From an uncultured Bacteroidales bacterium (lineage in GTDB: Bacteria > Bacteroidota > Bacteroidia > Bacteroidales > Muribaculaceae), in contig CASEAQ010000010.1 of NCBI GenBank assembly GCA_949285735.1, positions 1 to 64,000 on the forward strand: DNA of 64,000 bases. The letters are read 5' to 3'. The position numbers and the translations under genes are program-made. Under the pieces are notes generated by a model. The model had not been told where the DNA came from, searched no databases, and worked only from the letters and a program-made list of their open reading frames with translations. Shown here piece by piece: positions 5,174 to 22,709 of the stretch (the stretch's first letter is position 1; every line of letters starts with the position of its first letter).

Positions 5174-6079
5174 ATGTCAACATTAAAACAACGTTGCAAC
5201 ACACTGCGCAATGAGTTCAAAGCCCGGCTTGGCTACTCGCTCATCTCGGCAATCATCATAACCATAATTTTGCTGCTCATCAAGAAGTCGGACATGCCAT
5301 CAGCCGACCAGCACATCAGCCTCGGCATCGTGGCAGCATACGCAGCCATCGCCGTCGCCACCCACATCATATCCGATGCCATAAGCTACATCGTCGCCGG
5401 GTTCTCGATGAGTCTATCAACATCGTGGCAAGGCACATTCAACACCATTTTATCGATAATGCTGATGGGCGCAGCATTCTCATACGTCGAAGCAACGTCG
5501 CCCGGCGGCATTGTCATATTCTTCGATGGCAAGGGAAATTTGCCGCAAATACTGCTTTCCAACTATGTGCTGGCAATTATCGCAGCTACAATCACATCGT
5601 CGTTTGCGCGTAACAGTGAGCGACGGAAAGAAGAGTTGCGAATCAGCGAGGAGTGCTCGGCAATCAACGACTGCATAGCCCGCCGCAATGCCGAGAAGAG
5701 CAACGCCACTTGCCCGATAATCATGGATCAGATAATAAAATTAGACACCGCGGCTGCCAGCCACTCCTCCGAGTTTGCAGTGTGCGACATAATATATGCC
5801 CACAGAACCAGCAACCAGCATATAACGCTCGCCTACAACTGCGGACGGAAAGTGTGCAGGACGTGCATCGACGGCAACATCGCCGACCTGTTGCAGGCTT
5901 TTGCCAACTATAGCCAAATCATGCGCTGCCACAAGGACTACATTGTAAACACCGACCTCGTAAACCACGTCTCCTACAACCGCAACCAATACCTGCTGCA
6001 AATGCGCGGCACCAAGCACATCATTCCAGTGTCGCACAAATACCAGCGCATGATATACGACACTCTGACAGCCGAATAA
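5174..6079 (+). CDS. Membrane-anchored LytTR-family regulator
   Basis: The 301-aa protein has about four hydrophobic segments in its first 150 residues (near 15-35, 50-80, 95-110 and 135-155). Its C-terminus, about 200-300, resembles the LytTR DNA-binding domain, with CHKDYIVNTDLV and the HIIPVSHKY end typical of the family. It is probably a membrane-bound transcription factor. I chose ATG 5174 over an in-frame TTG at 5138, because that TTG lies in a -7-like box (TATTTTTG at 5133). The MATE transporter follows after 8 bp, so the pair is probably an operon, with the transporter a candidate target. Confidence 0.72.
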   Translation: MSTLKQRCNTLRNEFKARLGYSLISAIIITIILLLIKKSDMPSADQHISLGIVAAYAAIAVATHIISDAISYIVAGFSMSLSTSWQGTFNTILSIMLMGAAFSYVEATSPGGIVIFFDGKGNLPQILLSNYVLAIIAATITSSFARNSERRKEELRISEECSAINDCIARRNAEKSNATCPIIMDQIIKLDTAAASHSSEFAVCDIIYAHRTSNQHITLAYNCGRKVCRTCIDGNIADLLQAFANYSQIMRCHKDYIVNTDLVNHVSYNRNQYLLQMRGTKHIIPVSHKYQRMIYDTLTAE

Positions 6080-6087
6080 GTCTCCCA

Positions 6088-7395
6088 ATGAACAAACGCA
6101 TTCTCGCAATAGCACTCCCGTCGATCGTCACCAACATAACGGTGCCGCTGCTCGGGCTTATCGACATCACAATTGCCGGACACCTCGGACACACCGAATA
6201 TATGGGAGCAATAGCCGTCGGGGCTATGATGTTCAACCTCATTTATTGGAACTTCGGCTTCTTGCGAATGGGCACTGCCGGACTGACGGCACAAGCCTAC
6301 GGGCGCGGCGACAAGCAAGCCGCTGCCACAGTGCTCGCCCGTGCAACGGCGTTGGCTGCCACAATTGCAACAGTTATCCTCGTGCTGCAAGTGCCGCTGC
6401 AATGGCTGTTGCTGACGGTGGTAAGCCCGTCGCCCGAGGTGCTTGACTTTGCGCGGCAATACTTCTATATATGCGTCTGGGGTGCGCCAGCCATGCTCAT
6501 CGACATGGCACTGAAGGGGTGGTTCTTGGGTATGCAAGACTCCCGAACACCAATGTTCATGGCAATCGGCATCAACATCGTCAACATCATCACCAGCCTT
6601 GCAGCCGTATTCCTCCTCGACATGGGATTTGCGGGCATACCGATGGGAACGGTTGTCGCCGAATATGCCGGCATGGCTTATGGCATCACCGTCGTCTATC
6701 GCCGCCACAGGCACATATTGCGCAACATCGACTGGCGCAAGACGCTTGTTGCAAGCGAGATGCGGCATTTCTTCGGCATCAATGCCGACATATTCCTGCG
6801 CAGCGCATGCCTGATGGCAGTGAACCTGTTTTTCGTGTCGGTGGGAGCCCGCAGCGGCGATGTCACACTCGCCGTCAACGCGCTGATAATGCAACTGTTC
6901 ACTCTCTTTTCCTACTTCATGGACGGATTTGCATTCTCGGGCGAGGCATTGGCTGGACGCTACACCGGGGCACGCGACCGCACGATGCTGCGCAGTTGCA
7001 TTCGCCACATATTCGGTTGGGGAACGGCAGTGGCAATCATATTCATGCTCGCATATACCTTTGGAGCCGAACCGATTTTCGGCATAATTACCAACGACAC
7101 CACCGTCATCACGGCAGCCATGCACTATCGATGGTGGTGTGTGGCAATTCCTGTTGCCGGCATGGCTGGATTTGTGTGGGATGGAATATACATCGGGCTT
7201 ACTGCCACACGCGAGATGCTGGCAACCATCTTATTGTCGTGCGCCACATATTTTGCCCTATACTTCGCCATGCCAGCCGACATGGGTAACGACCGACTGT
7301 GGCTTGCCTTCATAGCCTACCTTGCCATGCGCGGCGTGAGCCAAACAGCAGTTTACCACTATCGGCTTAAACGCCACATCGAGCAATGGACTTAA
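6088..7395 (+). CDS. MATE-family efflux transporter (DinF-like)
   Basis: This 435-aa polytopic protein has about 12 hydrophobic segments and the MATE N-terminal pattern (PSIVTNITVPLLGLIDITIAG, then a conserved region around AQAYGRGD). MATE proteins export cationic drugs or metabolites in exchange for Na+ or H+. It starts 8 bp after the LytTR regulator gene and should be co-transcribed with it. The substrate is unknown. Downstream lies a large inverted-repeat region. Confidence 0.88.
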   Translation: MNKRILAIALPSIVTNITVPLLGLIDITIAGHLGHTEYMGAIAVGAMMFNLIYWNFGFLRMGTAGLTAQAYGRGDKQAAATVLARATALAATIATVILVLQVPLQWLLLTVVSPSPEVLDFARQYFYICVWGAPAMLIDMALKGWFLGMQDSRTPMFMAIGINIVNIITSLAAVFLLDMGFAGIPMGTVVAEYAGMAYGITVVYRRHRHILRNIDWRKTLVASEMRHFFGINADIFLRSACLMAVNLFFVSVGARSGDVTLAVNALIMQLFTLFSYFMDGFAFSGEALAGRYTGARDRTMLRSCIRHIFGWGTAVAIIFMLAYTFGAEPIFGIITNDTTVITAAMHYRWWCVAIPVAGMAGFVWDGIYIGLTATREMLATILLSCATYFALYFAMPADMGNDRLWLAFIAYLAMRGVSQTAVYHYRLKRHIEQWT

Positions 7396-17752: not shown

Positions 17753-18178
17753 TCACTTCATTCCGAGTATTGCCTCGACGGCAAGGCGATAACTATCGAG
17801 CCCGAAGCCGGCTATCACTCCGGCGCAAGCCGCCGAAATCATGCTGTGGTGGCGCACCTGCTCGCGCTTGTGCACATTGGAAATATGCACTTCCACCACT
17901 GGGGCAGTTATCGAACGTATGGCATCGGCTATGGCAAGCGACGTGTGGGTGTATGCCCCCGCATTCAGCACAATGCCATCGCAATCAAAACCCACGCGGT
18001 GCAGCTCGTCGATGATGAAACCCTCCACATTACTCTGGAAATAATGCAATTCGGCAGCCCCTTCATATCGCTGGCGCAATGCAACAAGATAGTCTTCAAA
18101 ACGTTGCTCGCCATATATGTCGCGCTCGCGAGTGCCAAGCAAGTTCAAATTGGGGCCGTTGATTATAGCTATCTTCAT
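17753..18178 (-). CDS. aroQ: Type II 3-dehydroquinate dehydratase
   Basis: At 141 aa this is the usual size for AroQ, the shikimate-pathway enzyme that dehydrates 3-dehydroquinate. The signatures INGPNLNLLGTRE (residue 6 on, with active-site Arg and the following Tyr) and LNAGAYTHTS (about 75) are intact, as is VHISN near 103. It is first in a minus-strand run with pyk and the methyltransferase, and has its own consensus promoter. Confidence 0.96.
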   Translation of the reverse strand: MKIAIINGPNLNLLGTRERDIYGEQRFEDYLVALRQRYEGAAELHYFQSNVEGFIIDELHRVGFDCDGIVLNAGAYTHTSLAIADAIRSITAPVVEVHISNVHKREQVRHHSMISAACAGVIAGFGLDSYRLAVEAILGMK

Positions 18179-18207: not shown

Positions 18208-18239
18208 CAAAATTAGGCACACTTTTCATTTTCGGCAAA
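18208..18239 (-). promoter_or_regulatory. aroQ promoter
   Basis: On the minus strand TTTG (plus 18236-18239), a 20-bp spacer and TAATTTTG (plus 18208-18215) match the consensus exactly, about 30 bp before the aroQ start. Positions 18240-18460 contain no gene; transcripts from the invertible promoter would cross them. Confidence 0.8.
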
Positions 18240-18460: not shown

Positions 18461-18486
18461 TGCCGTTACTTGGCAGGTAACGGCAC
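18461..18486. repeat. Left inverted repeat of the invertible segment
   Basis: This 26-bp sequence is the exact reverse complement of 19690-19715. It is also internally palindromic, TGCCGTTAC-N7-GTAACGGCA, so a recombinase could bind it as two half-sites. It contains GTTAC-N7-GTAAC, which I recall as one of the inverted-repeat classes of invertible promoters in Bacteroides fragilis. Confidence 0.92.
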
Positions 18487-18498
18487 GGTTAGTCGCTG

Positions 18499-18530
18499 CA
18501 AATATAGGCATTTTTTTATTAATGCACAAG
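18499..18530 (-). promoter_or_regulatory. Invertible promoter, now pointing left
   Basis: On the minus strand a -33 CTTG (plus 18527-18530) lies about 20 bp from a perfect -7 box TATATTTG (plus 18499-18506). Transcription would start near 18493, just inside the left repeat, and run toward aroQ. If the segment flipped, the same promoter would sit next to the right repeat and read into the lipoprotein gene at 19788. Confidence 0.8.
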
Positions 18531-18697
18531 ATATTGGATTTTTTTGAGAAAAAACATGAACAGAACGCAAAAAACTGTTTCGATTTCTACTGACACACAG
18601 TTTTAGCACCCGAAATTAAACCGCAACCCTATTGTTCATGCTTTGAGCCCAAAAGAAAACAACTTCTTAAAAACACATAAATAAACGATTCTAAATT

Positions 18698-19630
18698 ATG
18701 AACAAGACATCCATATCGGAAATGATGAGAGTGCTGGTTGACGAATACAAGCTCAACCGCCAATGGGGAACAGCACACGTGTATCAAAGCGCACTCAATG
18801 CCTTTGCGGCATTCGCAGGCAGGCGCAACCTGCACTTCGACGACCTGTCGGCACACATCGTAAAAGACTTTGAGATATTCCTGCGGCAGCGGCAATGCAG
18901 CTGGAACACCGTGGCAACCTACATGAAGGCACTCAAAGCCACCTACAACCGCGCCGTAGAGATGGGCTTGGCAGCATATACGCCACGCCTCTTTGCCAAC
19001 GTGCGCATTGCCGTCACCAACTGCCGCAAACGCGCCCTCGATGCCATCGAGATAGCTCCATTGGTAGCTACCAGTGCCACACCGCCATCGCCCACCCTGC
19101 ACCAGGTGAAACTCGTGTTTGCGCTCATGTTCCTGCTCAGGGGCATACCCTTTGTCGATCTTGCCTTCCTGCGCAAAGACAACATACGCAACGGCTACCT
19201 GTCATACCGCCGCCGCAAGACGGGACGAACACTCACAGTGAAACTCACCGCCGAAGCAACGGCAATCATCAAAACCCTCACCGCCGACACTCCCCGCAAA
19301 TCGCCCTACCTGTTCCCCTTCATAAACAGCCAAGAGGGAAGCCTGCAAGCATACAACGAATACCAACGGGCGTTGCGCAAACTCAACCACCAGTTGCGCA
19401 AACTGTCGGCAGCAATGAATTACGCCCGCCTGAGCACCTACACGGCGCGCCATTCATGGGCGACAATGGCATATTACTGCGAAATACACCAAGGCATAAT
19501 CTCCGAAGCGATGGGCCACTCGTCGATTGCCGTCACCGAGACCTACCTGAAACCCTTCCACAACGACCGCATCGACCAAGCCAACGACACCGTAATCGCA
19601 TACATCAAATCCTCCACCAAAAACAAATAA
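18698..19630 (+). CDS. Tyrosine recombinase (DNA invertase-type integrase)
   Basis: The 310-aa protein has an N-terminal SAM-like core-binding domain (about 1-110) and a C-terminal catalytic domain (about 120-300). The catalytic residues are visible: Arg in FLLRGIPF (about 148), YTARHSW (Arg and His, with Tyr in place of the usual first His), MGH near 275 and the nucleophile Tyr in TETYL. Size and motif match Bacteroides invertases. It lies inside the segment bounded by the 26-bp repeats, so it would flip along with the promoter. No phage or conjugation genes are near. Confidence 0.9.
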   Translation: MNKTSISEMMRVLVDEYKLNRQWGTAHVYQSALNAFAAFAGRRNLHFDDLSAHIVKDFEIFLRQRQCSWNTVATYMKALKATYNRAVEMGLAAYTPRLFANVRIAVTNCRKRALDAIEIAPLVATSATPPSPTLHQVKLVFALMFLLRGIPFVDLAFLRKDNIRNGYLSYRRRKTGRTLTVKLTAEATAIIKTLTADTPRKSPYLFPFINSQEGSLQAYNEYQRALRKLNHQLRKLSAAMNYARLSTYTARHSWATMAYYCEIHQGIISEAMGHSSIAVTETYLKPFHNDRIDQANDTVIAYIKSSTKNK

Positions 19631-19689
19631 AAAATTCCATCCACAAACTACTGCCCACGAAACAATAATCCCTAATTGAAAAACTGCCC

Positions 19690-19715
19690 GTGCCGTTACC
19701 TGCCAAGTAACGGCA
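19690..19715. repeat. Right inverted repeat of the invertible segment
   Basis: This is the 26-bp partner of 18461-18486, identical in reverse complement. It ends 72 bp before the lipoprotein ATG. The segment just inside it (19631-19689) shows no promoter reading right, so the lipoprotein lacks an evident promoter in this orientation. Confidence 0.92.
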
Positions 19716-19787
19716 ACCTATATTAGGAATTTAATAGTAAAATCAAAACAACTCTTTTCATTTTTAATATTTAAAGTTTTTATTATT

Positions 19788-22709
19788 ATGGTTAAAAAGT
19801 TTTTAAGTGCAACCTTGTTTGGATTCCTCATGCTGGGATCAGCAGGGATGTTTGTAGCTTGCGACGACTACGACGACACCGACTTAAGGATGCGCGTTGA
19901 AGCTGTGGAAGGCTCTCTTGCCGATTTGCAAGCACAGATAGAAAATGGAGCTGTGATCCAATCGGTCACCCCATCGGCAGACGGTATCACCATCACAATG
20001 ATGGACGGTACCACCTACAACATCACCAACGGCAAGGACGGTGCTGATGGTGCTACCGGCGCTGACGGAAAACCAGGATCGGTTGTTGAAATCGGTGAAA
20101 ACGGCAACTGGTTTATCGACGGCGTTGACACTGGTATGCCTTCACGTGGTGCCGATGGACAAGACGGTCAGGACGGTGCAGACGGACAAGACGGCACAAC
20201 CCCGACAATCGAAATCATCGACGGCTACTGGTGGATAAACGGTGCCAACACCAATGTTCCTGCAACTGGAGCTAACGGTGCTGATGGCGAAGACGGTACG
20301 GAAATCACTATCGGCGAAAATGGCAACTGGTTCCTCGACGGCGTTGACAGCGGCGTGAAAGCACAAGGCCCGCAAGGTCCTCAGGGCCCTGCCGGTGAAG
20401 AAGGCGCACAAGGACCAGAAGGACCTCAAGGCCCTGCTGGCGAAGATGCCAACTTGGTTTATTACTTCCCGGGCGAAGACGGTTACTGGTATAAGGTGGT
20501 TTGCACACCCGATGAAGTAGAAGTAAGCCGCGACAAAACACAAGCAACTTGGTTGCCCGAAGGCACAATCACAGCCGTTTACGACACCGAGTCGCAAGTA
20601 TTGGCACTCTACAACGTAAAGGGTGGCGAAGGCGAGAACAACGTTATCCGCATCAAGTTGTCGGAACCCCTCGTTGGTTTGCTCTTCGTTCCCGACGCTC
20701 TTAAGGACGGTGTAGGCGTTACCACATATTATTCGCTTTCGGTTGAAACCACTCCTGGCAACTACAAGTTCTTGGCTTCGAGCGACCTCGTAATGGATTA
20801 CCGCATGAACCCAAGCAACGCCGACCTCACCAACCTTAAAGACAAGGCTGCATGGTCGTTCGTAAACCGCACCGTTACAGTGCGCTCTGCCGATGACCAA
20901 GCCGACTTGCTCGAAATCAAGGGTGTTGAATTTGAAAACGGCAAAGCCACTGTTACCGCTGTCACCAAGCGTCAAGACAACTCTGCCACCTACGATGACA
21001 AAGACAACAAGGAAATTTTGGTGGCTCTGCAAGCAACCGACAAAACTCAGTCGGGCACAGAGCGCGTCATAACTTCTGACTATTCTATCATCGACTTCCA
21101 GACACTCAATGACTTCAGAATCGCCAAGAAGCATGAATTGCCAATTAGCTCTGAAACGCAACGCTACTATCCCGAAACTTGGAGCGGCAACGTAACAGAC
21201 GCTACAGCCTCCGATTATTCGTTTGTTTACACCGAGCAATGCAACCTCAATGCTCTTGCCGAGGCTTGGGCAACTTCCTACGCACACATCAGCCTCGTTG
21301 AAGCCGGCTTTGAGGAATATCTCACCTACACATTCGAGGAAACCAAGATAAAGGGTAGCGATGGTACCGAACAAGACTACTACACCTCAATCTCGGAAAA
21401 TGAAGATGGCGAATACGTGATGACAGTTGACAACGGCCCCAACGGAACTCCTACGGAAGCTGCTATCGGCCGCAAGCCAGTGGTTAAGGTTTCGGCATTC
21501 ATCAACGGAACTCAAATCGCTACTGGATATATCGTTATCGAAGTAAGGAGAACACCCGACGTGGTATTGCCAGTTTACAATGTACCCGATAAGAACATCG
21601 AAATTGAATACACTACATTGGCTGATGCCAACAGCTGGACGAAGGGTTACGCATTCGACTGGGCTACTGTAAACGATGAAATATACAAGGCACTCGGCAT
21701 TCCAGCCGAAGACTTCTCGAAACTCTACGACTACAGCAATGTTTCGTTCAACACTGCTACTGGCGTTAACGTAGTGATAAATCCGTTCAACAGCGATCCT
21801 ACGTTGACCGACGGTCTCGTTGAAGTTTCGTTCAACGACCAAGTTAACATCCCGACAGGCTCGATGTCGAGCAACGGCACAATAAAGGTTACAATTCCAG
21901 CCGTTGACAACACTGCCAACCGTGACATTGTAATCACTATCAATTACACTGTTAACGATAAGTGTGTAGCACCCGACTTCAACCCGCAATATGTTTCTAA
22001 CGGCACTCAAGTAGTTCGCGGTACGCTCGACAGCAACACTGGCAAGTGGATTATGCAGACTACGTTGTCTGAAGCATATATTGACTACCTTGAAGGCTAT
22101 GGCTACGGCAACCACACTTATGAGTTTGAGCTTGCACCAAATGCACCTGCCGGCGTTACCATCACCGATGCAGCCACAGCAGGAGGCTTCCAGAAGCAAA
22201 CAATACAACTCACCACCGAACTCGGCACAAACGAAGTTCGCAGAGTACCGGTTCGCTTGGTTGCTAAGCGTGACAATGGTTCGGAACACTACTTCAACCA
22301 CATTGTAGAGTTCAGGTCGCCGATTGCAGTAATTGTAAACGAAGGTCAACCTTTCGTTCTTGAAACTCCGCTCGCATTGCCGCAGACCGAAGATGTAGCA
22401 GAAGACGTTGACGTTTCGCTCATCGTAGGCAACGTACTGCTGTGGGACAACAAGGCTGTAACCGCCAATGCTGCTCTTTATGGTTTGACTACCAACGACT
22501 TCATATTCAGTTATGCTATAAAGGCTGGCGAAGACCAAAACGGTCGCTTGACAATCGACAAGACTACTGGTATGCTCACTTGGGACAACGACGGCACCGA
22601 ATTGAGGGAAGACATCACAGCCCACGTCATAGTAACGTTGCGCATTCCAAACATCGGTACTATGGAAGTTGAAGTGCCTGTAATCTTAAAAGCGACTCAG
22701 GGTGTATGA
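19788..22709 (+). CDS. Collagen-like surface lipoprotein (DUF4988-type), phase-variable candidate
   Basis: The 973-aa protein has a lipoprotein signal (hydrophobic 5-21, lipobox FVAC, Cys25) followed by an acidic, coiled-coil-like stretch (RMRVEAVEGSLADLQAQIE) as in DUF4988 proteins. Residues 81-220 contain Gly-rich stretches, ending in nine Gly-X-Y triplets (about 194-220). Between them are repeats of the ENGNWFIDGVDTG type, seen at about 104, 144 and 176. The long C-terminus (about 230-973) looks like tandem beta-sandwich domains. It is probably an outer-surface adhesin or structural protein. Codon use is richer in T-ending codons (GGT, GTT, GCT) than most neighbours. Its only apparent promoter is the invertible one. 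Confidence 0.85.
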   Translation: MVKKFLSATLFGFLMLGSAGMFVACDDYDDTDLRMRVEAVEGSLADLQAQIENGAVIQSVTPSADGITITMMDGTTYNITNGKDGADGATGADGKPGSVVEIGENGNWFIDGVDTGMPSRGADGQDGQDGADGQDGTTPTIEIIDGYWWINGANTNVPATGANGADGEDGTEITIGENGNWFLDGVDSGVKAQGPQGPQGPAGEEGAQGPEGPQGPAGEDANLVYYFPGEDGYWYKVVCTPDEVEVSRDKTQATWLPEGTITAVYDTESQVLALYNVKGGEGENNVIRIKLSEPLVGLLFVPDALKDGVGVTTYYSLSVETTPGNYKFLASSDLVMDYRMNPSNADLTNLKDKAAWSFVNRTVTVRSADDQADLLEIKGVEFENGKATVTAVTKRQDNSATYDDKDNKEILVALQATDKTQSGTERVITSDYSIIDFQTLNDFRIAKKHELPISSETQRYYPETWSGNVTDATASDYSFVYTEQCNLNALAEAWATSYAHISLVEAGFEEYLTYTFEETKIKGSDGTEQDYYTSISENEDGEYVMTVDNGPNGTPTEAAIGRKPVVKVSAFINGTQIATGYIVIEVRRTPDVVLPVYNVPDKNIEIEYTTLADANSWTKGYAFDWATVNDEIYKALGIPAEDFSKLYDYSNVSFNTATGVNVVINPFNSDPTLTDGLVEVSFNDQVNIPTGSMSSNGTIKVTIPAVDNTANRDIVITINYTVNDKCVAPDFNPQYVSNGTQVVRGTLDSNTGKWIMQTTLSEAYIDYLEGYGYGNHTYEFELAPNAPAGVTITDAATAGGFQKQTIQLTTELGTNEVRRVPVRLVAKRDNGSEHYFNHIVEFRSPIAVIVNEGQPFVLETPLALPQTEDVAEDVDVSLIVGNVLLWDNKAVTANAALYGLTTNDFIFSYAIKAGEDQNGRLTIDKTTGMLTWDNDGTELREDITAHVIVTLRIPNIGTMEVEVPVILKATQGV

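Follow-up and report, generated by a model that had tools for sequence, protein, structure and literature searches.

The window analysed here, a stretch of 64,000 nucleotides from an uncultured member of the Muribaculaceae (order Bacteroidales), lies on contig C10 of a genome (G000) of 2.6 Mb which is 80% complete. It contains a tyrosine recombinase gene between two inverted repeats, upstream of a gene coding for a predicted surface lipoprotein, which is followed by pyrH and frr. The features of the locus are:

17753–18178, minus strand: aroQ (3-dehydroquinate dehydratase), the left neighbour, co-directional with the invertible promoter in the present orientation
18208–18239, minus strand: promoter-like TTTG-N20-TAATTTTG of aroQ, 29 bp before the aroQ ATG
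18461–19715, no strand: putative invertible segment, 1255 bp counting both 25-bp sites
18461–18488, plus strand: left recombination site, the 25-bp palindromic TGCCGTTAC-N7-GTAACGGCA plus 3 bp, N7 core TTGGCAG
18499–18530, minus strand: outward promoter-like CTTG-N20-TATATTTG, pointing left, the OFF orientation for the lipoprotein
18698–19630, plus strand: tyrosine recombinase, 310 aa
19688–19715, minus strand: right recombination site, an exact inverted copy of the left one, N7 core CTGCCAA on the plus strand
19716–19787, plus strand: leader of the lipoprotein gene, 72 bp, consensus promoter absent
19788–22709, plus strand: predicted switched gene, a 973-aa surface lipoprotein with N-terminal signal, Cys25, DUF4988, short Gly-x-y stretches and a beta-rich body

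A preliminary description of this DNA had noted identical inverted repeats of 26 bp. The repeats are indeed exact inverted copies, but they extend over 28 bp (18461–18488 and 19688–19715). Both palindromes (18461–18485 and 19691–19715) agree with TGCCGTTAC-N7-GTAACGGCA at zero mismatches. This motif has on average 0.03 matches in the shuffled window, and two copies were obtained in none of 100 shuffles. With the looser GTTAC-N7-GTAAC and one mismatch allowed, 28 of 100 shuffles reach two matches, so that the short pattern alone is not significant in the window. Thus, it is because the arms are longer than GTTAC/GTAAC that chance is a very unlikely source of these repeats.

That the enclosed gene codes for a tyrosine recombinase, as had been proposed, agrees with the Pfam domains of the intact open reading frame (SAM-like, 9e-19; Phage_integrase, 1.7e-10) and with its catalytic residues. 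R148, K174, Y248-x-x-R251-H252, H274 and Y283 are all present and invariant in the 16 aligned homologues (16/16). We take R148, K174, Y248, R251, H252, H274 and Y283 to be the expected tyrosine recombinase set, with roles assigned from knowledge of the family. The reading frame (18698–19630) is fully enclosed by the sites, and the statement that the recombinase gene rides inside a segment of about 1.25 kb therefore holds (1255 bp).

The only strong promoter of the segment had been placed 12 bp inside the left repeat and described as directed leftward. The promoter-like element is indeed found there on the minus strand, with its TATATTTG box 13 bp away from the left 25-bp palindrome. It contains the sole outward-facing TAnnTTTG of the segment's two intergenic stretches, to which the scan was confined. 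When the 212-bp interval was resampled with a first-order Markov model, a promoter of this kind at 10–13 bp from the site arose in only 10 of 50,000 cases, which makes a chance placement very unlikely. After inversion the end of the box would come to lie 13 bp from the right palindrome, not 5–7 bp inside the right repeat as previously estimated, and 110 bp before the ATG of the lipoprotein gene. This geometry fits the spacing of 72–87 bp between site and ATG which we found for 14 lipoprotein genes of the genus (13 of the 16 loci searched gave them). The ATG of the lipoprotein gene (19788) follows the right palindrome at a distance of 72 bp, and the gene has, as claimed, no other visible promoter: the gap between the recombinase and the lipoprotein gene is free of TAnnTTTG on the plus strand, including positions 19716–19788, where such a promoter would have spoken against a switch. 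A consensus scan of the window also gave no TAnnTTTG facing the recombinase gene, and a generic sigma-70 scan found three promoter-like sites with 2.6 expected. If the segment were turned to ON, the site would form a hairpin in the leader of the transcript according to the predicted fold.

The lipoprotein had been called collagen-like. This is true for a short part of the protein only, as the Pfam Collagen domain is recognized at residues 82–136 with 28.1 bits (cut-off 27.2); further Gly-x-y stretches are found near residues 193–220. DUF4988 scores 32.7 bits (cut-off 30), and the signal cysteine Cys25 is invariant in the alignment. Among 16 aligned lipoprotein targets, DUF4988 is present in nine and Collagen in six. 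Several congeners show far higher conservation in the N-terminal part than in the remainder (86% vs 40% in G001), as expected for variable surface proteins. The fold model is of modest confidence (mean pLDDT 72, pTM 0.39) and suggests a beta-rich body. The 50 Foldseek matches listed are mostly cadherin-type chains with TM-scores of only 0.09–0.14 over the model, so that we claim nothing more specific. A sequence search of the PDB with the lipoprotein returned nothing below E 0.24. The protein may be a variable surface or S-layer-like protein, the putative S-layer role being an analogy with BT1927 of B. thetaiotaomicron. The latter is an S-layer lipoprotein of about 100 kDa whose invertible promoter has the same site class, as stated in excerpts of PMC12548429, PMC12578637 and PMC12118408; the analogy is drawn from size, surface location and type of promoter. 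In these excerpts the BT1927 locus has a putative barrel partner, Bt1926, whereas the next genes in the window are pyrH and frr.

How widespread is the recombinase? With a subfamily threshold of E at most 1e-70, the own family has it in eight of its 397 genomes; these eight belong without exception to the own genus, which comprises nine genomes. A sample of 393 genomes from the whole order, the own one among them, has it in 6. It is further present in 21 of 399 genomes of a second family (f59, taken to be the Bacteroidaceae) and in 5 of 268 of a third (f113, taken to be the Rikenellaceae). One scan of contigs yielded 26 recombinase loci, some of them in records titled Bacteroides, Mediterranea, Tidjanibacter or Odoribacter. 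Each species is represented by a single genome in the two collections used. For several loci these seem to share assemblies (e.g. G003:C42 and CALUMJ010000042.1, both of 24520 bases), so that no second strain was obtained from them.

A recombinase tree was built with 58 rows after five shorter duplicates had been dropped; two rows are identical and no row has a stop. Site pairs were called by matching cores. In 17 rows the recombinase is inside a pair, in 24 a pair starts within 400 bp downstream, and 17 rows have none, a class into which loci truncated at a contig end and loci with imperfect sites also fall. In all of the 17 recombinase-inside loci an outward promoter is located 10–13 bp inside the site at the upstream end of the recombinase, and none of them has a box within 30 bp of the opposite site. 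In a hand-picked set of 15 loci, which overlaps the 17, the promoter is at the expected end in 14. In the exception (L091, CASFQC010000091.1) the recombinase frame is split and the second site degenerate; the promoter is at the opposite end of the segment, and a flanking lipoprotein gene is duplicated. The strict pair pattern missed L079, where one arm reads GTACC, yet this locus has the recombinase-inside layout; at L085 the region beyond the left site cannot be seen. On the tree the recombinase-inside label (IN) requires 10 changes compared with 14.8 for shuffled labels, and one of 500 shuffles was as low. The layout is thus clustered, but it does not form one clade; within the own genus, OUT rows branch among IN rows. 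Judged from record titles or tree labels, the layout occurs in loci of four families, namely the own family, the Bacteroidaceae, the Rikenellaceae and, with one Odoribacter MAG, a fourth.

We considered whether another recombinase of the genome inverts the segment, the enclosed gene being a passenger or acting mainly elsewhere. The host genome has five further, weaker recombinase matches. Furthermore, G001 and G005 lack a site of this kind next to their orthologous recombinase gene, although GTTAC-class pairs are present on other contigs. The enzyme could thus plausibly act at a distance; a B. fragilis recombinase acting on a distant site has been published (PMC4747536, in the passages available). 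On the other hand, in 41 of the 58 rows of the tree the recombinase gene is either enclosed by a matched pair (17) or followed by one whose start is at most 400 bp downstream (24), and the enclosed recombinase has intact catalytic residues and a gene that is kept in eight of the nine genomes of the genus. We therefore regard an inversion by another enzyme as rather unlikely. One further recombinase-like match of the host genome (G000:C2:28639-29520) shows 38% identity and an internal TAA.

Promoter-only segments are also found at further lipoprotein genes in G001, G003, G006 and G007, and the same recombinase may drive such scattered segments in trans. One of them (L131, G001:C4:33000-44000, at 5396–5757) is located between a lipoprotein gene and a gene for a 715-aa protein which by eye resembles an outer-membrane receptor. 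Its promoter now faces the 715-aa gene, and the segment may alternate between two targets. A lipoprotein gene of G004 (L066, G004:C13:3000-16000) has a single site at 6457–6481, 85 bp upstream; no partner site was found nearby and no TAnnTTTG points toward the gene within 600 bp. This gene is perhaps silent unless its site is recombined with another one.

A unit of 1.25 kb in which perfect inverted repeats at the ends enclose an enzyme gene also resembles an insertion sequence, and the subfamily is patchy over the families (8/397, 21/399 and 5/268 genomes). The segment could accordingly be a transposable element, that is, a recombinase gene with terminal inverted repeats which has inserted upstream of the lipoprotein gene. 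Each end of the segment, however, is a complete palindromic site, unlike a simple terminal repeat, and just outside 18461 and 19715 no target-site duplication is visible by eye. The position of the segment relative to the lipoprotein gene is fixed. Parts of the order aroQ-recombinase-lipoprotein-pyrH-frr are common to G001, G003, G004, G006 and G007; G006 has the same layout as the window, the lipoprotein gene is missing at the aroQ-pyrH locus of G001, and G002 and G005 carry the recombinase at another place than this locus. In two sister species, G003 and G007, the recombinase is outside, and a promoter-only segment of 252–253 bp with the same sites is located at the same place, between the recombinase and the lipoprotein gene; orthologous copies are inverted in place. 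We consider a transposable element highly improbable.

Evidence for inversion itself comes first from the 7-bp cores, since core identity is what strand exchange requires. For this analysis 26 regions were hand-picked where pairs had already been seen, and the sites were located by their arms alone. The cores match as inverted copies in all 24 scored pairs (24/24), with 13 distinct cores, and none of 20,000 re-pairings was as good; as related loci are not independent, this figure is not a probability. L032 and L072, each with more than two site-like matches, were left unscored; each has an N7-matched pair in the pair-calling scan. L072 also has a second, outer matched pair without promoter.

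The second line of evidence are opposite orientations in related genomes, which the preliminary description had proposed to look for and which we found in orthologous loci of different species. Between L075 and L129 the recombinase-bearing segment is inverted at 75.5% identity while the collinear flanks are direct at 73–82%, and between L071 and L130 it is inverted at 79% with direct flanks at 86–98.5%. These four loci represent two different loci of one genus (g142), outside the genus of the window. Within the genus of the window, the orthologous locus of G003 (L031) and G007 (L032) has the small promoter segment inverted at 73% and the main flank direct at 86%; the promoter faces the lipoprotein gene in G003 (ON) and away from it in G007 (OFF). 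In the inverted ortholog pairs the breaks fall at the sites. Between L071 and L130 the distal 5.2-kb flank is 98.5% identical and the switch region only 79–89%, which suggests fast change or exchange around the switch.

For the host species one orientation is known. In addition, from the stop codon of the recombinase gene to the right site the window has no hairpin of at least 7 pairs, so that leaky read-through into the lipoprotein gene is possible in the OFF state; 13 of the 16 loci examined have such a terminator-like hairpin, a raw count over intervals of unequal length. Both observations would suit a locked relic, in which inversion has ceased in the host species and the lipoprotein gene stays OFF or is expressed weakly through the transcript of the recombinase gene. 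But the sites are exact over 28 bp, the reading frames of the recombinase and of the 973-aa lipoprotein are open and the promoter-like element is intact, and the sole relic seen in the genus, in G004, has lost both the right site and the promoter box. We judge a locked state to be very unlikely. In the G004 relic (L036, G004:C11:62000-80000) the lipoprotein gene and the right site are gone, and the left site and the recombinase are kept; no promoter box is present at the kept site and a half-site is found just outside. We count it in favour of a working switch that the promoter box has vanished together with the right site and the lipoprotein gene while the recombinase was kept.

The present orientation of the segment, OFF, is the more frequent one among the loci resolved here. 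In the 17 recombinase-inside loci the lipoprotein gene is on the side away from the promoter (OFF) in 11, on the promoter side (ON) in two and on both sides in four. The congeners with the recombinase-inside layout, G006 and G002, are likewise OFF and have the same orientation as the window. In the own genus only two of the 12 lipoprotein genes with a site pair and a resolved promoter direction are ON, a count which omits L064 (contig ends at the site), the single-site genes L061 (contig end) and L066, and the second gene of L037. The OFF state of G006 and G002 and the low number of ON genes speak against a working switch.

It might be asked whether the present orientation is functional too, in that the outward promoter raises aroQ-pyk expression while the lipoprotein is off. 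The promoter does aim at the co-directional aroQ, 283 bp away, and likewise in G006. If the recombinase-inside set is taken together with L079, 11 OFF loci have a visible gene on that side, and in four of them (the window, L070, L090 and L129) this gene is co-directional. The nearest gene opposes the promoter in the other seven of 11, and aroQ has its own promoter-like element and hence need not depend on the invertible one. We consider such a second function unlikely.

Some loci have more than one potential target. In B. muris (L077) and in a Mediterranea (L083), differing lipoproteins are encoded on the two sides of the switch. B. oleiciplenus (L072, NZ_JH992944.1, about 4.7–12.4 kb of the locus) has two identical 964-aa lipoproteins, encoded within a near-perfect inverted repeat of 3.2 kb around the switch, which may be a real duplication or an assembly product of mixed orientations. 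In the Odoribacter MAG (L081, CALUKE010000011.1, 7756–13242) a site-flanked segment of 5.4 kb encloses the recombinase and a 997-aa lipoprotein, and further lipoproteins are encoded outside both segment ends. Finally, G002 (L037, G002:C1:109000-128000) has sites at 395, 9038 and 10242 with two lipoprotein genes and one recombinase. The third site lies 76 bp before the second lipoprotein gene, and judged from geometry only, inversion of the 8.6 kb from the outer-left to the left site would place the promoter 113 bp before the second ATG. In the loci with a lipoprotein on either side (B. muris and the Mediterranea, and perhaps also B. oleiciplenus and the Odoribacter) the switch would be a choice between two surface proteins and not an ON/OFF decision. 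Whether all these loci constitute a distinct class of portable Hin-like Bacteroidales cassettes, in which two sites enclose a recombinase gene and, back to back with it, an outward promoter, the whole inverting as one unit beside DUF4988-type lipoprotein genes, including the choice between two proteins, the third site of G002 and the action in trans, is in our opinion evenly balanced.

The switch belongs to the known Bacteroidales GTTAC-N7-GTAAC class and is arranged like Hin with the recombinase inside. The preliminary description had named GTTAC-N7-GTAAC as an invertible-promoter class of B. fragilis, and in passages of PMC12118408 such sites flank invertible promoters in Bacteroides. The locus has an inverted site pair with matching cores, a linked tyrosine recombinase with its catalytic residues and a Bacteroides-type promoter (TTTG/TTG, 19–21 bp, TAnnTTTG) which is directed outward inside one end, and both orientations occur between orthologous loci of different species. 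The same passages describe GTTAC-GTAAC repeats beside invertase/integrase genes at capsule and S-layer loci, the cases being the S-layer gene BT1927 and CPS1/3/5/6 of B. thetaiotaomicron and a CPS of B. xylanisolvens. Palindromic sites, the promoter between them, an invertase/integrase gene at the locus and a surface protein or capsule as target are thus shared with the window. The 19-bp inverted repeat given there, CCGTTACCTABVRAGTAAC, differs from the site of the window, CCGTTACCTGCCAAGTAAC, at one position. In B. xylanisolvens, however, the invertible piece measures 280–290 bp and the invertase gene precedes it, whereas in the window the gene is inside the 1.25 kb with the promoter fixed 5′ of the gene.

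Salmonella Hin is alike in that an invertible segment of about 1 kb holds the recombinase gene and a direction-switched promoter (excerpts of PMC5903667 and PMC3798978). Hin is a serine recombinase and works with Fis and an enhancer according to the same excerpts; the enzyme of the window is a tyrosine recombinase and hence of another family. The switch of the window works like Hin but is not a member of the Hin family. Tsr19 (BF2766) of B. fragilis is described in parts of PMC4747536 as a tyrosine recombinase which inverts TAnnTTTG promoters of surface structures, both local and distant, and one of its target clusters contains a lipoprotein gene. In this description the tsr19 gene is near, not in, its own invertible promoter.

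In the passages seen of PMC12118408, PMC4747536 and PMC13114119, the invertase gene of the Bacteroides cases is beside the promoter segment. PMC5903667 mentions, in the part available, recombinases close to the switch and, occasionally, inside it, with Hin as the example. According to excerpts of PMC11892184, the promoter of an inverton can generally not drive the invertase nearby, and of 1837 invertons 952 intersect coding sequence. Among the titles, abstract openings and passages that our literature search covered, we recognized none describing a Bacteroidales recombinase inside its own invertible promoter segment; a prior description is possible.

We suggest that the switch operates as follows. 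The tyrosine recombinase would bind to the two 25-bp sites and exchange strands within the identical 7-bp cores. This exchange would invert the 1.25-kb segment, and with it the gene of the enzyme and the outward promoter next to that gene. As sequenced, the segment would have its promoter firing to the left toward aroQ, and the lipoprotein would be OFF; in the inverted orientation the promoter would be 110 bp before the ATG and the lipoprotein would be ON. As recombinase and promoter are back to back in both states, the switch would be reversible. The sites, the promoter-like element, the recombinase, the matching of the cores and the opposite orientations in orthologous loci of relatives can be read from the sequences; that the recombinase acts on its flanking sites, that the promoter is active and that inversion takes place in the host species we infer. 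Taken together, the locus is very probably a self-contained phase-variation switch, in which the enclosed recombinase inverts the 1.25-kb segment and thereby toggles the lipoprotein.

Our findings suggest that surveys of invertons should also seek longer, gene-carrying segments. The ON/OFF switch can be tested in named isolates of B. rodentium and B. stercorirosoris, and the versions with two lipoproteins allow a direct test of an alternate choice of surface proteins in a named isolate, B. muris. Phase variation of surface proteins shapes the encounters of gut Bacteroidales with phages and immunity, and with the recombinase gene inside the putative invertible segment in loci of four families, this arrangement probably represents a natural self-contained genetic switch.
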